From Companilactobacillus formosensis (GTDB taxonomy: Bacteria > Bacillota > Bacilli > Lactobacillales > Lactobacillaceae): a stretch of DNA of 64,000 bases. The stretch lies in contig NZ_BJDU01000004.1 of the NCBI RefSeq assembly GCF_005405305.1, positions 124,001 through 188,000 on the forward strand, read 5' to 3'. Shown here one piece after another: positions 20,322 to 55,884 of the stretch (position 1 is the stretch's first letter; each line of letters begins with the position of its first letter). Under the pieces are notes generated by a model, which worked only from the letters and a program-made list of their open reading frames with translations, was not told the DNA's origin and made no database searches. Both the position numbers and the translations under genes were made by a program.

Positions 20322-20400
20322 TCCGTCCTCCATAGCAAAGAAAATTTGGCTGGAACGTAGTGGGCACGACTTGGAGCCTTTGCTATTCCGGACTAAATAG
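20322..20400 (+). repeat. Palindromic repeat element, copy A (shortened)
   Basis: This copy shares with the element at 55422 the blocks CCGTCCTCCATAGC, AAAATTTGGCTGGAACG, GGGCACGACTTGGAGCCTTTGCT and ATTCCGGACTA. The internal part has been lost, yet the ends still close as a 9-bp perfect stem: ATAGCAAAG (20332-20340) with CTTTGCTAT (20378-20386). It lies directly after purB and may act as its terminator or mRNA-end structure. Confidence 0.8.
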
Positions 20401-20565
20401 TGGTTTCTATCTTTATATAAATTACTTTAGAAAATTAATAGAGGATGTTATTGGAATTGTAGTATATTGCTGCATTTCTAGTAATGTCTTCTTTTTTGTC
20501 GGAAAAGGAAATAGAGTTGTTATTAAAAAGTATGTGTCTAATTCAATTTAAATAGAAATTTAAAT
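20401..20565. other. Intergenic spacer between two inverted repeat elements
   Basis: AT-rich sequence between copies A and B, whose tails face each other. I see no gene or clear promoter in it. A 63-codon open frame crosses copy A and this spacer but has no coding character. Confidence 0.4.
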
Positions 20566-20735
20566 CTAGTCGGGAGCAAAAGCCCTGTGATGGCTCAGCC
20601 GGCAAATTATTCTTAGCGATTTATCGCTTAGAATAAGACCAATCTTGAAGCCTTTGCCCGCACTTGGTCTTAGCAAAGGCTTCAAGTTGCGTCGCCAGCG
20701 TTCCAGCCAATCACAGGGCTTTTGCGGACGACGGC
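20566..20735 (-). repeat. Palindromic branched repeat element, copy B
   Basis: Read on the minus strand, this copy has the same plan as the 55.4-kb copy. The outer stem is a perfect 16-bp pair (20576-20591 with 20710-20725). GGCTGGAAC and TGAGCC flank an internal loop. A second stem pairs 20694-20699 with 20598-20603 (G-U on the minus strand, C-A on the plus). A 14-bp perfect hairpin (20644-20657 with 20673-20686) carries a 15-base loop almost identical to that of the other copy, and a further hairpin lies at 20607-20636. Outer-stem sequences are unrelated to the other copies but remain paired. Confidence 0.85.
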
Positions 20736-30593: not shown

Positions 30594-30778
30594 TAGAAGT
30601 GGATCATATTGATTCTTTCTTAGTTAGGTTAGTATTTAAATTGTTGTCACTACCGACTAGATAATGTTTCGTTTCTTTTATATCAAATAATTAGGAAATA
30701 AAGAATAGAACAACTATCTAGTCCGGAATACTTCAACTAACCAAGATTAAGAAAAAATCTCATTTTTGGACACTTCTT
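30594..30778. repeat. Imperfect inverted pair of repeat-element tails between dagK and rlmD
   Basis: About 185 bases form a long imperfect palindrome. Outer ends AGAAGTG (30595-30601) and CACTTCT (30771-30777) pair. Inside, TTAGTTAGGTTAGTATT faces AATACTTCAACTAACCAAG, and CCGACTAGATA (30653-30663) faces TATCTAGTCCGG (30716-30727). The TTCCGGACTAGATAGT block with a following TTCTAT is the same as the 3' tail of repeat copies A and C. The hairpin plus TTTTTT at its right end could terminate dagK transcription. Confidence 0.72.
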
Positions 30779-50979: not shown

Positions 50980-51051
50980 TAGATAATTACAAAATTATGT
51001 TTTAAATTCAAATTTTTGAATGAATATTTTTTATAAAATGAGGGATTAGCA

Positions 51052-52407
51052 ATGAAAGTAGTAGTTATAGGTTGTACTCATGCAGGGACCGCTGCTGTGG
51101 AACAAATTCTAGCAGAACATCCTGGTACAGAAGTTACAGTTTATGAAAGAGACGATAATATTTCATTTCTATCTTGTGGGATTGCACTTTATTTAGGGCA
51201 TAAAGTAAAACATCTTGAAGACATGTTTTATGCAGACCCTCAAGATTTGGAAAAACTCGGTGCTAAGGTTTATATGAAGCATGATGTTTTGAAAGTAGAT
51301 TCTAAGAACAAAACCATCATGTGTGAAGATATGAAGACTCACCAAATTATTAACGATACTTACGATAAATTGATTATGACTACTGGATCAACTGTCGCAG
51401 TGCCACCAATCATGGGGATTTCTGATACAAGGATTTTGATGTGCAAAAGTTATGCACAGGCAGAAGCAATTTATGAAACTGCCAAAGAATATAAGCATAT
51501 TACGATTGTTGGTGGTGGTTATATTGGTGTAGAACTGGCTGAAAGCTATGCTAATACTGATCATGAAGTTTCTTTGATTCAATCACGTGACCAAGTTTTA
51601 AATAATTATTTGGACAAAGATATGTCACAAAATGTTATCAATTTATTAAAAGAGCACGGGGTTAATATTTATCTGAATGAACGAGTAACTGGATTTACTA
51701 GAGATGATGACGATAATGTTTTAATCGAAACCACTAAAGATGATCATAAAGCAGACCTTGTCATCGTCTGTACGGGATTTGTCGCTAATACGGAATTATT
51801 GCGGGGGCAGGTCGAGATGGATCGCCATGGGGCTATTATTATCAACGAATATACGCAAACATCTAATCCTGATATTTATGCGGCAGGTGATGCTTGTACA
51901 GTAATTTTCAATCCAACTGGCAAACATGCGTATATGCCATTGGCTACTAATGCTATTCGTCAAGGAGCTTTAGCGGGAACTAATGTCTTTGGCAATATCA
52001 AAAAATATATGGGTACGCAAGCTACATCTGCTATGGAATTGTTCGGCTATACGATTGCTTCAACAGGTCTAACTTTACGTCATGCTTTGCACAGTGATAT
52101 CAATGCTGACACGGTAACTTATCACGATTATTATCGTCCTAAGTACATGCCAACGACCGATATGTTGACGGTTAAATTGGTTTACAACAAGGACAATCAT
52201 TTGATTTTAGGCGCACAATTTTTTAGCAAACATGAAGTAGCTCAATCAGCTAACACGTTGTCGGTTTGCATCCAAAACAAAAATACGATTGATGATTTGG
52301 CTTACATGGATATGTTATTCCAACCAAATTATGATAATCCGTTTAACTATTTAAATTTAGTTGCCCAAAAAGCAGTGGCTAAGGAAAGAGAAGCCAAAGC
52401 AAAATAA
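51052..52407 (+). CDS. NADH oxidase-like flavoprotein (Nox / CoA-disulfide reductase family), copy 1
   Basis: The 451-residue product has an N-terminal FAD-binding fold (VIGCTHAGTAAVEQI), the redox-active Cys42 in FLSCGIALYLG, an NAD-binding motif (ITIVGGGYIGVELAESYA, about 150-167), the second FAD motif (DIYAAGDAC) and a dimerisation domain ending NPFNYLNLVAQ. A single Cys42 is used as a sulfenic acid in water-forming NADH oxidases and NADH peroxidases, so it reduces O2 or H2O2 with NADH; the exact reaction cannot be told apart by eye. ATG 51052 follows GAGGGATTAGC. It is highly similar to the second copy at 54003. Confidence 0.9.
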   Translation: MKVVVIGCTHAGTAAVEQILAEHPGTEVTVYERDDNISFLSCGIALYLGHKVKHLEDMFYADPQDLEKLGAKVYMKHDVLKVDSKNKTIMCEDMKTHQIINDTYDKLIMTTGSTVAVPPIMGISDTRILMCKSYAQAEAIYETAKEYKHITIVGGGYIGVELAESYANTDHEVSLIQSRDQVLNNYLDKDMSQNVINLLKEHGVNIYLNERVTGFTRDDDDNVLIETTKDDHKADLVIVCTGFVANTELLRGQVEMDRHGAIIINEYTQTSNPDIYAAGDACTVIFNPTGKHAYMPLATNAIRQGALAGTNVFGNIKKYMGTQATSAMELFGYTIASTGLTLRHALHSDINADTVTYHDYYRPKYMPTTDMLTVKLVYNKDNHLILGAQFFSKHEVAQSANTLSVCIQNKNTIDDLAYMDMLFQPNYDNPFNYLNLVAQKAVAKEREAKAK

Positions 52408-52435
52408 AAGAGGAATTTCTTTTATTTCATATAAT

Positions 52436-52495
52436 TTAAGGTCAAAAATAGCATCTATTCAGATTGCAATAATCTAAATAGATGCTTTTAGTTTG
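52436..52495. repeat. Palindromic terminator repeat after nox copy 1
   Basis: GCATCTATT-C-AGATT and AATCT-A-AATAGATGC (52451-52485) form a stem with loop GCAAT, then TTTTAG. The stem plus flanks (TTAAGGTCAAAAATAG before, TTTTAGTTTG after) recurs in the opposite orientation after nox copy 2 (55614-55673). Confidence 0.82.
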
Positions 52496-52618
52496 GTTAT
52501 ATAAAAATGCAGAGAAGTTCCATTTTCAATGTATTAGTTGTATGTAAGTTTATTTTTTGAATTAACCAACTTTTAGTAAGAACTAAATTTGAATGAGGAA
52601 ATTCCTTTTTGTTTTCAT

Positions 52619-53797: not shown

Positions 53798-54002
53798 CTT
53801 ATTCAGCTCCCTAAATAAAAAAGTCAACACAAGATAATTATATTACAAATACTGCTCGATTTTTGTTCTATTTTTGATATAAAAAAATACAATTTTTAAA
53901 AAAGAGGCTAAATTTATGCTTGATATAATTTACGTATATATTGTGTTATGCTTAAAAGAATGGAATGAGTATACAAATGTACAGTAGAGGAGGAACCGAC
54001 GA

Positions 54003-55355
54003 ATGAAAGTTATTGTTGTCGGATGTACACATGCTGGAACAGCTGCAGTTGAACAAATATTAACGAAGCATCCGGAGACTGAGGTAACGGTCTATGAACG
54101 TGATGATAACATTGCTTTTCTATCTTGTGGAATTGCTTTGTATTTGGGGAGAATCGTTAACCGTCTTGAAGACATGTTTTATGCGGATCCTACCACACTT
54201 GAAGGCTATGGTGCCGAAGTTCATATGAAGCACAATGTCTTGAAAATCGATTCAAAAAACAAAAAAATTGTTGTTCAAGATCTACAAACTCAAGAAATTT
54301 TTGAAGATACTTATGATAAGTTGATTATGACAACTGGTTCCGAAGTTGGTGTACCTCCAATCAAAGGTATGGATAATCAAAGAGTTCTATTGTGTAAGAG
54401 TTATGCACAAGCTAAAAAAATTTATGAATCAGCTTTAAATTATCCAAGCATTGCCATTGTTGGTGCTGGATACGTTGGGGTTGAACTAGCTGAAAGCTAT
54501 GCCAACACAGTTCACGAAGTGTCTTTGATTCAATCCCGTGATCAAATTTTAAATAATTACGTGGATGATGGTTTGTCAAAAGAAATCATTGATAAATTAA
54601 AGGAACATGACGTGAAAGTTCATCTTGGCGAAAGAGTGGCTGAGATTGAAGATGGCGAACAGTTAACCATTAAGACTAAAGCTGGTCACGAGTATAAAGC
54701 CGATTTAGTAATTGTTTGCACTGGGTTCTTTGCCAATACTGACTTGTTGCGTGGACAAGTTCAAATGGATGGCTACGGAGCAATTATTATTAATGATTAC
54801 ATGCAAACATCAAATCCTGATATTTATGCGGGTGGAGATTCTTGTGTGGTTAAATTTAATCCAACTGGCGAATATCGTTACATTCCACTAGCATCTAGTG
54901 CCGTTCGTCAAGGAACTCTAGCAGGAATTAATATTTTCGGCAATATTCGTAAGTATATGGGCACACAAGCTACAACTGCGATGGAAATCTTTGGTTATAC
55001 TTTAGCTGAAACGGGACTAACTTATAAGAAAGCCATTGCTAATGGTATCAATGCTGATTATGTAGTCTATAAAGATTACTATCGTCCAAATTACATGCCA
55101 ACGACTGATATGTTGACGATCTACTTAGTTTACGATAAAGATACGCGTAAAGTTTTAGGCGCACAGTTATTCAGCAAACATGAAGTAGCTCAATCCGCTA
55201 ATGCCGTTTCAATTTGTATTCAAAATGATAATACGATTGATGATTTAGCTTATGTCGATATGTTATTCCAACCAAATTATGATAATCCATTTAATTATTT
55301 GAATTTGGTTGCACAAATGGCAATTGATAAAGAAGATAAAATTGATAAAAAGTAA
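54003..55355 (+). CDS. NADH oxidase-like flavoprotein, copy 2
   Basis: The 450-residue product shares its whole length with copy 1: FAD motif VVGCTHAGTAAVEQI, redox Cys42 in FLSCGIALYLG, NAD motif IAIVGAGYVGVELAESYA, DIYAGGDSC and the NPFNYLNLVAQ end. ATG 54003 has AGAGGAGGAACCG upstream. Two such enzymes within 3 kb suggest a dose need or a split of roles (O2 versus H2O2, or different redox conditions). A palindromic repeat and the shared terminator follow. Confidence 0.9.
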   Translation: MKVIVVGCTHAGTAAVEQILTKHPETEVTVYERDDNIAFLSCGIALYLGRIVNRLEDMFYADPTTLEGYGAEVHMKHNVLKIDSKNKKIVVQDLQTQEIFEDTYDKLIMTTGSEVGVPPIKGMDNQRVLLCKSYAQAKKIYESALNYPSIAIVGAGYVGVELAESYANTVHEVSLIQSRDQILNNYVDDGLSKEIIDKLKEHDVKVHLGERVAEIEDGEQLTIKTKAGHEYKADLVIVCTGFFANTDLLRGQVQMDGYGAIIINDYMQTSNPDIYAGGDSCVVKFNPTGEYRYIPLASSAVRQGTLAGINIFGNIRKYMGTQATTAMEIFGYTLAETGLTYKKAIANGINADYVVYKDYYRPNYMPTTDMLTIYLVYDKDTRKVLGAQLFSKHEVAQSANAVSICIQNDNTIDDLAYVDMLFQPNYDNPFNYLNLVAQMAIDKEDKIDKK

Positions 55356-55421
55356 TTTTTAAAGAAGAATCTTACTAATTGCGATTAGGGTTCTCTCTTA
55401 ACGTTGGTTAGTGAAAATATT

Positions 55422-55595
55422 TCGTCCTCCATAGCGAAGAAAATTTGGCTGGAACGATGTGGGCACGACTTGGAGCCTTTGCTAAGCCCAAGTGCGGGCA
55501 AAGTCTTCAAGCTCGACCTTTCACTAGGCAATAAATTGCCAAGAGAAATTTCACATCTGAGCCAATTTTCTTCGCTATTCCGGACTAGATAGTGA
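55422..55595 (+). repeat. Palindromic branched repeat element, copy C (complete)
   Basis: The outer stem pairs ATAGCGAAGAAAATTTGG (55431-55448) with CCAATTTTCTTCGCTAT (55562-55578). Inside are the conserved GGCTGGAAC / TGAGCC internal loop, a second stem GATGTG/CACATC (55456-55461 with 55552-55557), a 14-bp hairpin (55469-55482 with 55498-55511, one mismatch and one G-U) with a 15-base loop, and a small hairpin GGCAAT/ATTGCC (55527-55540). Weak outer inverted repeats (about 55382-55401 and 55677-55695) may mark the limits of a larger unit that also contains the terminator repeat. Confidence 0.85.
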
Positions 55596-55613
55596 TTCTA
55601 TTTTTAATAACAA

Positions 55614-55673
55614 CAAACTAAAAGCGTCTATTTAGATTATTGCAATCTGAATAGACGCTATTTTTGACCTTAA
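55614..55673. repeat. Palindromic terminator repeat after nox copy 2 (inverted copy of 52436-52495)
   Basis: GCGTCTATT and AATAGACGC with inner AGATT/AATCT (55624-55658) form the stem. The reverse complement of this stretch, including the AAACTAAAAGC and TTTTTGACCTTAA flanks, matches the repeat downstream of nox copy 1. The two G-to-A type differences in the stem are on both arms, so pairing is kept. Confidence 0.82.
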
Positions 55674-55884
55674 TTTTTAAGAAAGAACCCGATTAGTTTG
55701 TAGTTTTTTTTTGTTAGATGAATTAGCGAATATTTTGTTTTTTAAAGTTTCATTTTCATATAAAAAAATTAAAATATAAATTTACTTTTTTGAATAGCTT
55801 TTTCCTTTGTCAAAATGTATATTAAAAAAGGCGTTTCGAATGCTAGAATTTTTGTAGTTAATAGAATACTTTGAGGGTGATCAT

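Follow-up and report, generated by a model that had tools for sequence, protein, structure and literature searches.

A possibly shape-conserved foldback DNA module in MITE-like units of Companilactobacillus formosensis and other Lactobacillaceae

Palindromic repeats in the genome of Companilactobacillus formosensis belong to a widespread family of branched modules carried by short units that are MITE-like, with terminal inverted repeats, target duplications and empty orthologous sites all observed. At a confidence close to even, the family is best explained as the foldback DNA module of a non-autonomous, MITE-like transposon in which shape is conserved, with an inferred function.

The analysed window is a stretch of 64,000 nucleotides (NZ_BJDU01000004.1, positions 124,001 to 188,000), in which a preliminary description had placed three copies (A, B and C) of a palindromic repeat family and had recognised no named element. 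All three lie where it placed them and fold as it described, the family extends to far more than three copies, and Rfam returned no match for A/B or for C at E up to 1; at gathering score, matches were limited to two tRNAs in the window, with none in six further loci. Copies A and B form a tail-to-tail pair with a 175-nt spacer, copy A starting ~20 nt past the purB stop codon; the genes around the copies are purB (PF10397), pcrA (PF21196), and those for a pyridine nucleotide-disulphide oxidoreductase and a GGDEF protein. The features of the window are as follows.

20325-20393, plus strand: copy A, interior lost, outer stem of the ATAGCAAAG type; left half of the tail-to-tail unit
20394-20568, no strand: unit spacer between copies A and B, resembling the spacers of several other units of this genome
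20440-20492, plus strand: long hairpin in the A-B spacer, then TTTTTT, terminator-like by its fold
20569-20732, minus strand: copy B, full-length module, outer stem of the GCAAAAGCCCTGTGAT type; right half of the unit
30704-30759, minus strand: probable family remnant, with a module 3' end (30704-30730) and a degenerate terminal repeat (30738-30759)
55382-55388, plus strand: CGATTAG, left putative target duplication, inside a former terminator hairpin
55389-55689, plus strand: single-module unit composed of a GGTTCTCTCTTAAC left end, copy C, a terminator-like hairpin and a AAGAAAGAACC right end
55424-55585, plus strand: copy C, full-length module, outer stem of the ATAGCGAAGAAAATT type
55623-55659, plus strand: terminator-like hairpin carried by the unit of copy C
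55690-55696, plus strand: CGATTAG, right putative target duplication

Copies B and C have in common GGCTGGAAC and TGAGCC, together with a 15-base apical loop that differs at one position (TAAGACCAAGTGCGG in B, TAAGCCCAAGTGCGG in C), and their second stems are those previously given (GCTGGC/GCCGGC in B, GATGTG/CACATC in C). The outer stems are unrelated in sequence and each is complementary, over 16 bp in B as proposed, and over 15 contiguous bp in C (RNAfold) rather than the proposed 17-18; copy A is closed by ATAGCAAAG/CTTTGCTAT, 9 bp. Fold z-scores of -10.0 for B and -6.3 for C, with 0/200 shuffles as good for either, indicate that the fold is not due to chance, and the antisense strands fold almost equally well (z -9.8 and -5.5, respectively). 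Both window units have their own terminator-like hairpin; in the A-B spacer, the stretch 20428-20500 folds at -26.8 kcal/mol (z -6.8, 0/200 shuffles equal), the hairpin at 20440-20492 having gone unreported in a simple terminator scan. Elsewhere in the window, 52422-52507 is an inverted copy (88%) of the downstream flank of C at 55602-55687, and a terminal-repeat match lies at 52563-52584; the stretch 52422-52584 is probably a decayed unit following a paralogous oxidoreductase gene. The oxidoreductase paralogues stand in tandem at 51051-52386 and 54002-55334, with 71-79% identity in blocks.

The full module, ~160 nt in length, is a three-way junction built from a long outer stem whose sequence is free, a second stem of 6 bp, and two hairpins, H1 and H2, each with one fixed mismatch (C·T in H1, A·A in H2). 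Among 138 copies from elsewhere (set A2, among the matches listed), the consensus of letters at ≥70% reads GNCNTCCG-(free stem)-GGCTGGAACG-NN-GTGGGCACGACTT-NN-AGCC...GTCT-NN-AAGCTCGGCCTT-NNN in its 5' part, continuing as CTAAG...CTAAG-NNN-AATNTCAC-NN-CTGAGCC-(free stem)-CTCCNGNC in its 3' part. Conservation of ≥90% was found in 15 of 28 well-occupied unpaired columns and in 36 of 95 paired columns of A2, where the fixed mismatch letters, as shares of the letters present, stand at 1.00 for C and 0.95 for T in H1, and 1.00 and 0.90 for the two As of H2. The GGAAC/TG internal loop and both mismatches are near-invariant across genera, and two As of the H2 loop are invariant in 30/30 copies of C. 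formosensis.

Those 30 copies (set A1) were taken from 34 modules of ≥156 nt, with 42 modules clipped in all, and aligned plainly with MAFFT; RNAalifold returned 53 pairs, 35 of them changed on both sides. With this structure fixed, 97.5% of cells are paired, a percentage slightly flattered by the omission of four modules, one of them the chimera L018 with its non-matching outer arms; A1 also excludes the partial ones of the 61 places in this genome (see below). The covariation score of 0.552, against 0.192 ± 0.009 in shuffled alignments, was reached by 0/500 shuffles and fell to ≤0.112 when partners were slid by 1-3 columns; a measure of further pair types did not rise above the A1 shuffles, 174/500 of which were equally high. 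The conserved internal loops proposed earlier are confirmed, as are the proposed compensatory changes, with covariation far above background. A2 gave 0.513 against 0.136, in an alignment fitted to R1, a covariance model with its structure from RNAalifold on A1. Sets A3 (36 copies in genome G295) and A4 (37 copies in Pediococcus, some of them common to A2) were fitted in the same way, and the pair counts of all three sets consequently lean towards the structure.

BLAST searches of the C. formosensis genome gave 61 matches with C as the query and 57 with B, with 40 candidates scored for each, and the stretches examined hold 61 merged places, fragments included. Among 60 genomes, 21 were BLAST-positive, namely C. 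formosensis and 20 of 35 congeners, with none of 24 others. A covariance-model scan, of the kind that had been advised, likewise recovered copies in relatives: R1 detected the family in 77/301 Lactobacillaceae genomes, spanning 13/40 genera, and in 12/295 Lactobacillales genomes, all Lactobacillaceae, figures that are minima owing to stricter filters and a drawn sample of genomes. Hosts among the matches listed include Companilactobacillus, Levilactobacillus, Lacticaseibacillus, Schleiferilactobacillus, Pediococcus, and a Limosilactobacillus MAG. A plasmid search gave no match for the C query, four weak partial matches for a G295 unit and eight weak matches for a Pediococcus unit; a phage search gave none for the B query and none for the G295 unit.

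A typical unit consists of a terminal repeat, a ~160-nt module, a spacer, an inverted second module and a terminal repeat, with a size of about 160-730 bp, too short to accommodate a transposase gene. Neighbouring modules <700 nt apart are arranged plus-minus in 50/57 cases (minus-plus 0, plus-plus 3, minus-minus 4), a count in which at least three places on overlapping stretches occur twice; among 52 C. formosensis copies of ≥60 bits the same four arrangements (plus-minus, minus-plus, plus-plus, minus-minus) number 8, 1, 0 and 1, the single minus-plus pair being part of a nested insertion. Companilactobacillus units are bounded by GGTTCTTTCTTAA-like repeats and those of Pediococcus ethanolidurans (G345) by TAAAGGTTGAAAG, which gave 70 matches at ≤2 mismatches versus 2 for the reversed pattern; paired ends in G345 enclose units of 157-730 bp. 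By eye, some Pediococcus modules (L248, L250, L274, L275) contain a ~90-nt inserted stretch with further hairpins, giving 602-bp units.

Target duplications within one mismatch flank 16/30 Pediococcus units versus 6/870 mismatched flank pairs, and measure 7-9 bp where readable. In two cases in C. formosensis, a unit is nested within another module, at its H2 loop: one (C1:268087-268400) is flanked by an exact 8-bp duplication, AATAAATT, and the second (C4:200031-200344) lies between GATAAATC and AATAAATC, a 7/8 match. The 36 modules of G295 (E up to 1) each lie ≥700 nt from any other, with one module per unit; both unit ends were recognised in 5/36, and no clear target duplication was seen among the 36. 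Comparison of the units of Companilactobacillus, Pediococcus and G295 indicates that the same module is placed between unlike ends in different genera.

Empty sites, for which a search had been recommended, were found in relatives as module-free orthologous sites. At the site of copy C (29/30 loci analysed), G011 is without a unit, G022 has a full module pair, and G031 retains an intact terminator hairpin with one CGATTAG, beyond which lies one module on the other strand. In the purB-pcrA gap (20/30 loci analysed, 15 of them readable including that of C. formosensis, assigned from motifs and by eye), modules of the ordinary type, some of them incomplete, occupy C. formosensis (G000), G022, G021, G013, G028 and G024, and G026, G025 and G012 are module-free. 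The site of copy A is occupied in G022 by a full-length module with a different stem type, next to a spacer and right module that appear similar by eye, a pattern suggestive of module exchange in place.

Divergent modules with an extra arm were observed in the same gap in G002 (L281), G005 (L287), G029 (L291) and G009 (L295); they have a similar tail-to-tail layout, appear by eye to retain the H1 C·T and H2 A·A mismatches, and are accompanied by a hairpin resembling the purB terminator, which by eye lies between the two modules in G029 and G009 and before both in G002 and G005. Other palindromes occupy the gap in G003 and G033, where congeners have the present family. These belong to a second, unrelated palindrome family, arranged as RAGAGYG, a variable outer stem, CGAGCATTAA, a variable terminator-like hairpin, TTAAGCGGAA, the complementary stem and CGTTTCC, which was seen at 13 places in the loci examined (L286, minus strand, about position 1243; L326, L289, L304, L324, L329, L189, L182, L163, L164 and L197) and, at gathering score, matched no Rfam family in L286, L326 or L189.

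Duplications of 7-9 bp point to a putative DDE transposase as the mobiliser. No kb-sized unit with the known ends was found in G345, G000, G031 or G022 (end pattern, ≤2 mismatches), nor was an autonomous partner found by an 80-nt end search or by end patterns; 20 stretches around ends, several stopping at contig ends, yielded no recognisable transposase among the 13 inspected and L272, for which ORFs were listed. In Lacticaseibacillus zeae (L161), inverted modules enclose a 4.2-kb interior, which was rejected as a candidate, its ORFs by eye not being transposase-like.

If an RNA is functional, its acting strand should show more G·T than A·C. The directional RNA fold previously put forward agrees with the copies of C. 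formosensis, where G·T:A·C is 66:20, and is not supported by the other sets (125:123 in A2, 18:18 in A3, 8:23 in A4), all with one near-constant G·T pair excluded and, for A4, A·C-dominated pairs also excluded. That one pair is almost always G·T in every set, and the raw totals are 96:20, 255:123, 54:18 and 36:44, respectively. The excess in C. formosensis resides mainly in four pairs, becoming 15:18 without pairs >30% G·T, a cut biased against G·T; between clusters of its copies the ratio is still 31:13 and 21:8, with A2 ratios of 1.0-1.3. As a small control, 16 distinct tRNA acceptor stems from the sequences examined gave 6:0. Antisense folding is more stable than sense folding in 103/133 copies of A2, 29/33 of A3 and 27/29 of A4, and in 15/30 of C. 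formosensis. Copies at 94-97% identity, in comparisons whose sequence pairs overlap such that counts are not independent, show 35 double Watson-Crick versus 27 single changes at paired columns in C. formosensis, and 7 versus 18 in A2, 3 versus 6 in A3 and 21 versus 78 in A4. A sense-direction RNA fold is therefore unsupported outside this genome, its own copies favour G·T, and DNA accounts for the pattern of changes no less well than does a one-way RNA.

As departures from pairing outside C. formosensis do not favour the sense strand, the module fold may be kept as a DNA shape, either a cruciform or a single-stranded DNA hairpin, in which the fixed loops and mismatches would be contact points for a trans-acting protein (a transposase or host factor) and the stems would need pairing alone. 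Part of the paired changes probably stems from hairpin-templated repair during replication, and the mismatches would be maintained by activity that depends on shape; mere homogenisation of the arms is unlikely given fixed mismatches inside helices, which template switching should erase, and which thus argue for a selected shape. The module is unlikely to be the transposase's own site, since unlike ends surround it across genera. By analogy, and decidedly more tentatively, it may constitute a shape-coded DNA signal of free stems and fixed loops and mismatches, read in folded form by a putative trans factor common to Lactobacillaceae, its stems being partly renewed by hairpin-templated replication, such that RNA-like covariation would be both made and kept at the DNA level. 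Integron attC sites and viral terminal hairpins are recognised by shape; attC sites and the terminal hairpins of parvoviruses are DNA folds with free stem letters in which pairing and loops matter, and serve here purely as analogies. Against a shape-conserved module of a MITE-like transposon stand the failure of the searches above to find a transposase or autonomous partner, the unlike ends around the module, the G·T preference of C. formosensis copies (66:20) with one pair near-always G·T in all sets, the excess of single over double changes at 94-97% identity in A2-A4, and the single-module units of G295, with both ends in 5/36 and without clear target duplication.

Any polymerase that comes into a unit from its flanks reads the module in the sense direction, a layout that would equally be explained by an RNA role. 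In this rather improbable alternative, the module is a read-through 3'-UTR RNA followed by the unit's own terminator. This RNA would protect or process the end of the transcript and allow insertion to be tolerated, with the inverted module serving the other direction. Conserved loops with covarying helices, the G·T excess in C. formosensis, and the terminator-like hairpin in both window units are consistent with such a role, as is gene context, classified with a crude ORF caller. Units are often found at gene 3' ends; among 184 modules, the upstream gene is sense in 92, at a median of 65.5 nt, versus antisense in 79, at a median of 153 nt. In G295, convergent, tandem and divergent contexts number 19, 15 and 2 of 36 modules, as compared with 4, 20 and 12 among 36 other gaps of these loci (convergent excess, Fisher p 0.0003); two settings of the caller gave 19/16/1 and 19/15/2. 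Terminator-like hairpins follow 12/36 of these modules in the forward and 20/36 in the reverse direction, versus 0.4 and 0.6 in shuffles, and lie upstream of 4 and 1 of 36, respectively. The RNA role is opposed by the lack of G·T preference and the more stable antisense fold in three other sets, by the lack of an Rfam match, by the many copies that form part of larger mobile units instead of standing alone as RNAs, and by a terminator scan passed by only 2/50 pair spacers forward and 1 reverse, though long loops are missed; on the same 2/50, and with the same proviso for hairpins such as that at 20440, a plain terminator explanation was rejected.

Somewhat less probable still is a purely mutational palindrome, in which template switching at the replication fork keeps the arms complementary, the fold is unselected and the family is selfish debris. 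Compensatory changes from template switching have been reported, as described in part of PMC8794818. Double Watson-Crick changes outnumber single ones among near-identical copies of C. formosensis, deviations are strand-symmetric in the other sets, and copies with swapped or inverted arms were recognised by eye in C. formosensis (C9:21913, C1:251305, C5:149326, C6:105053), all of which favour this alternative. Copying of arms should, however, erase the H1 and H2 mismatches and the GGAAC/TG loop, which are near-invariant across genera; no inverted loop is seen at the two H2 As invariant in 30/30 copies, and in A2, A3 and A4 copies of 94-97% identity differ by more single than double changes.

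REP/REPIN-like movement, in which a Y1 transposase (RAYT/IS200) would act on hairpins of single-stranded DNA, is very improbable: tail-to-tail dimers of unlike partners, 3'-end location and CCGTC at the module edge resemble traits of REP dimers and CGTC-tagged REPs described in part of PMC3733652, but Y1 transposase (PF01797) is found in 0/6 module-rich genomes (control positive in 5/14), which largely refutes RAYT mobilisation, target duplications are 7-9 bp, and the module is branched and several times REP length.

Several known systems resemble the present family in part. Bacterial MITEs, in the portion of PMC10969869 concerned, share terminal inverted repeats, short target duplications, a non-coding and intergenic nature, many copies and strong folding; the present units differ in typically having two long inverted modules, a conserved branched fold and ends that are unlike between genera. 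Pneumococcal BOX, RUP and SPRITE repeats are likewise small, thought to be mobile, modular, predicted to form stem-loops and over-represented between convergent genes, whereas paired tail-to-tail modules and covarying stems are not described in the available part of PMC3049150, in the main text of which 'compensatory' has 0 occurrences. REP and CGTC-tagged palindromes share dimers of unlike partners, variable spacers and positions near 3' ends, and the CGTC families are without a dedicated transposase in the relevant sections of PMC3733652, none having been found for the present family either; they are simple hairpins of 20-40 bp with CGTC stems of 8-9 bp, in contrast to three-way junctions of ~160 nt. 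The DGR target hairpin/cruciform, in the part of PMC3240598 describing it, has free stem sequence with pairing and loop letters that matter, and provides a working analogy for a shape-conserved DNA module. No description of the family was found among the matches listed in open-licence PubMed Central literature.

The family constitutes a high-copy mobile element in at least 13 genera of a single bacterial family, with an unusually elaborate conserved fold. It also serves as a warning case, combining strong covariation (0/500 shuffles) with no general G·U preference; covariation alone would have been taken for a functional RNA. With many close copies, whether template switching or selection is the keeper of stem pairing is directly testable in this element.
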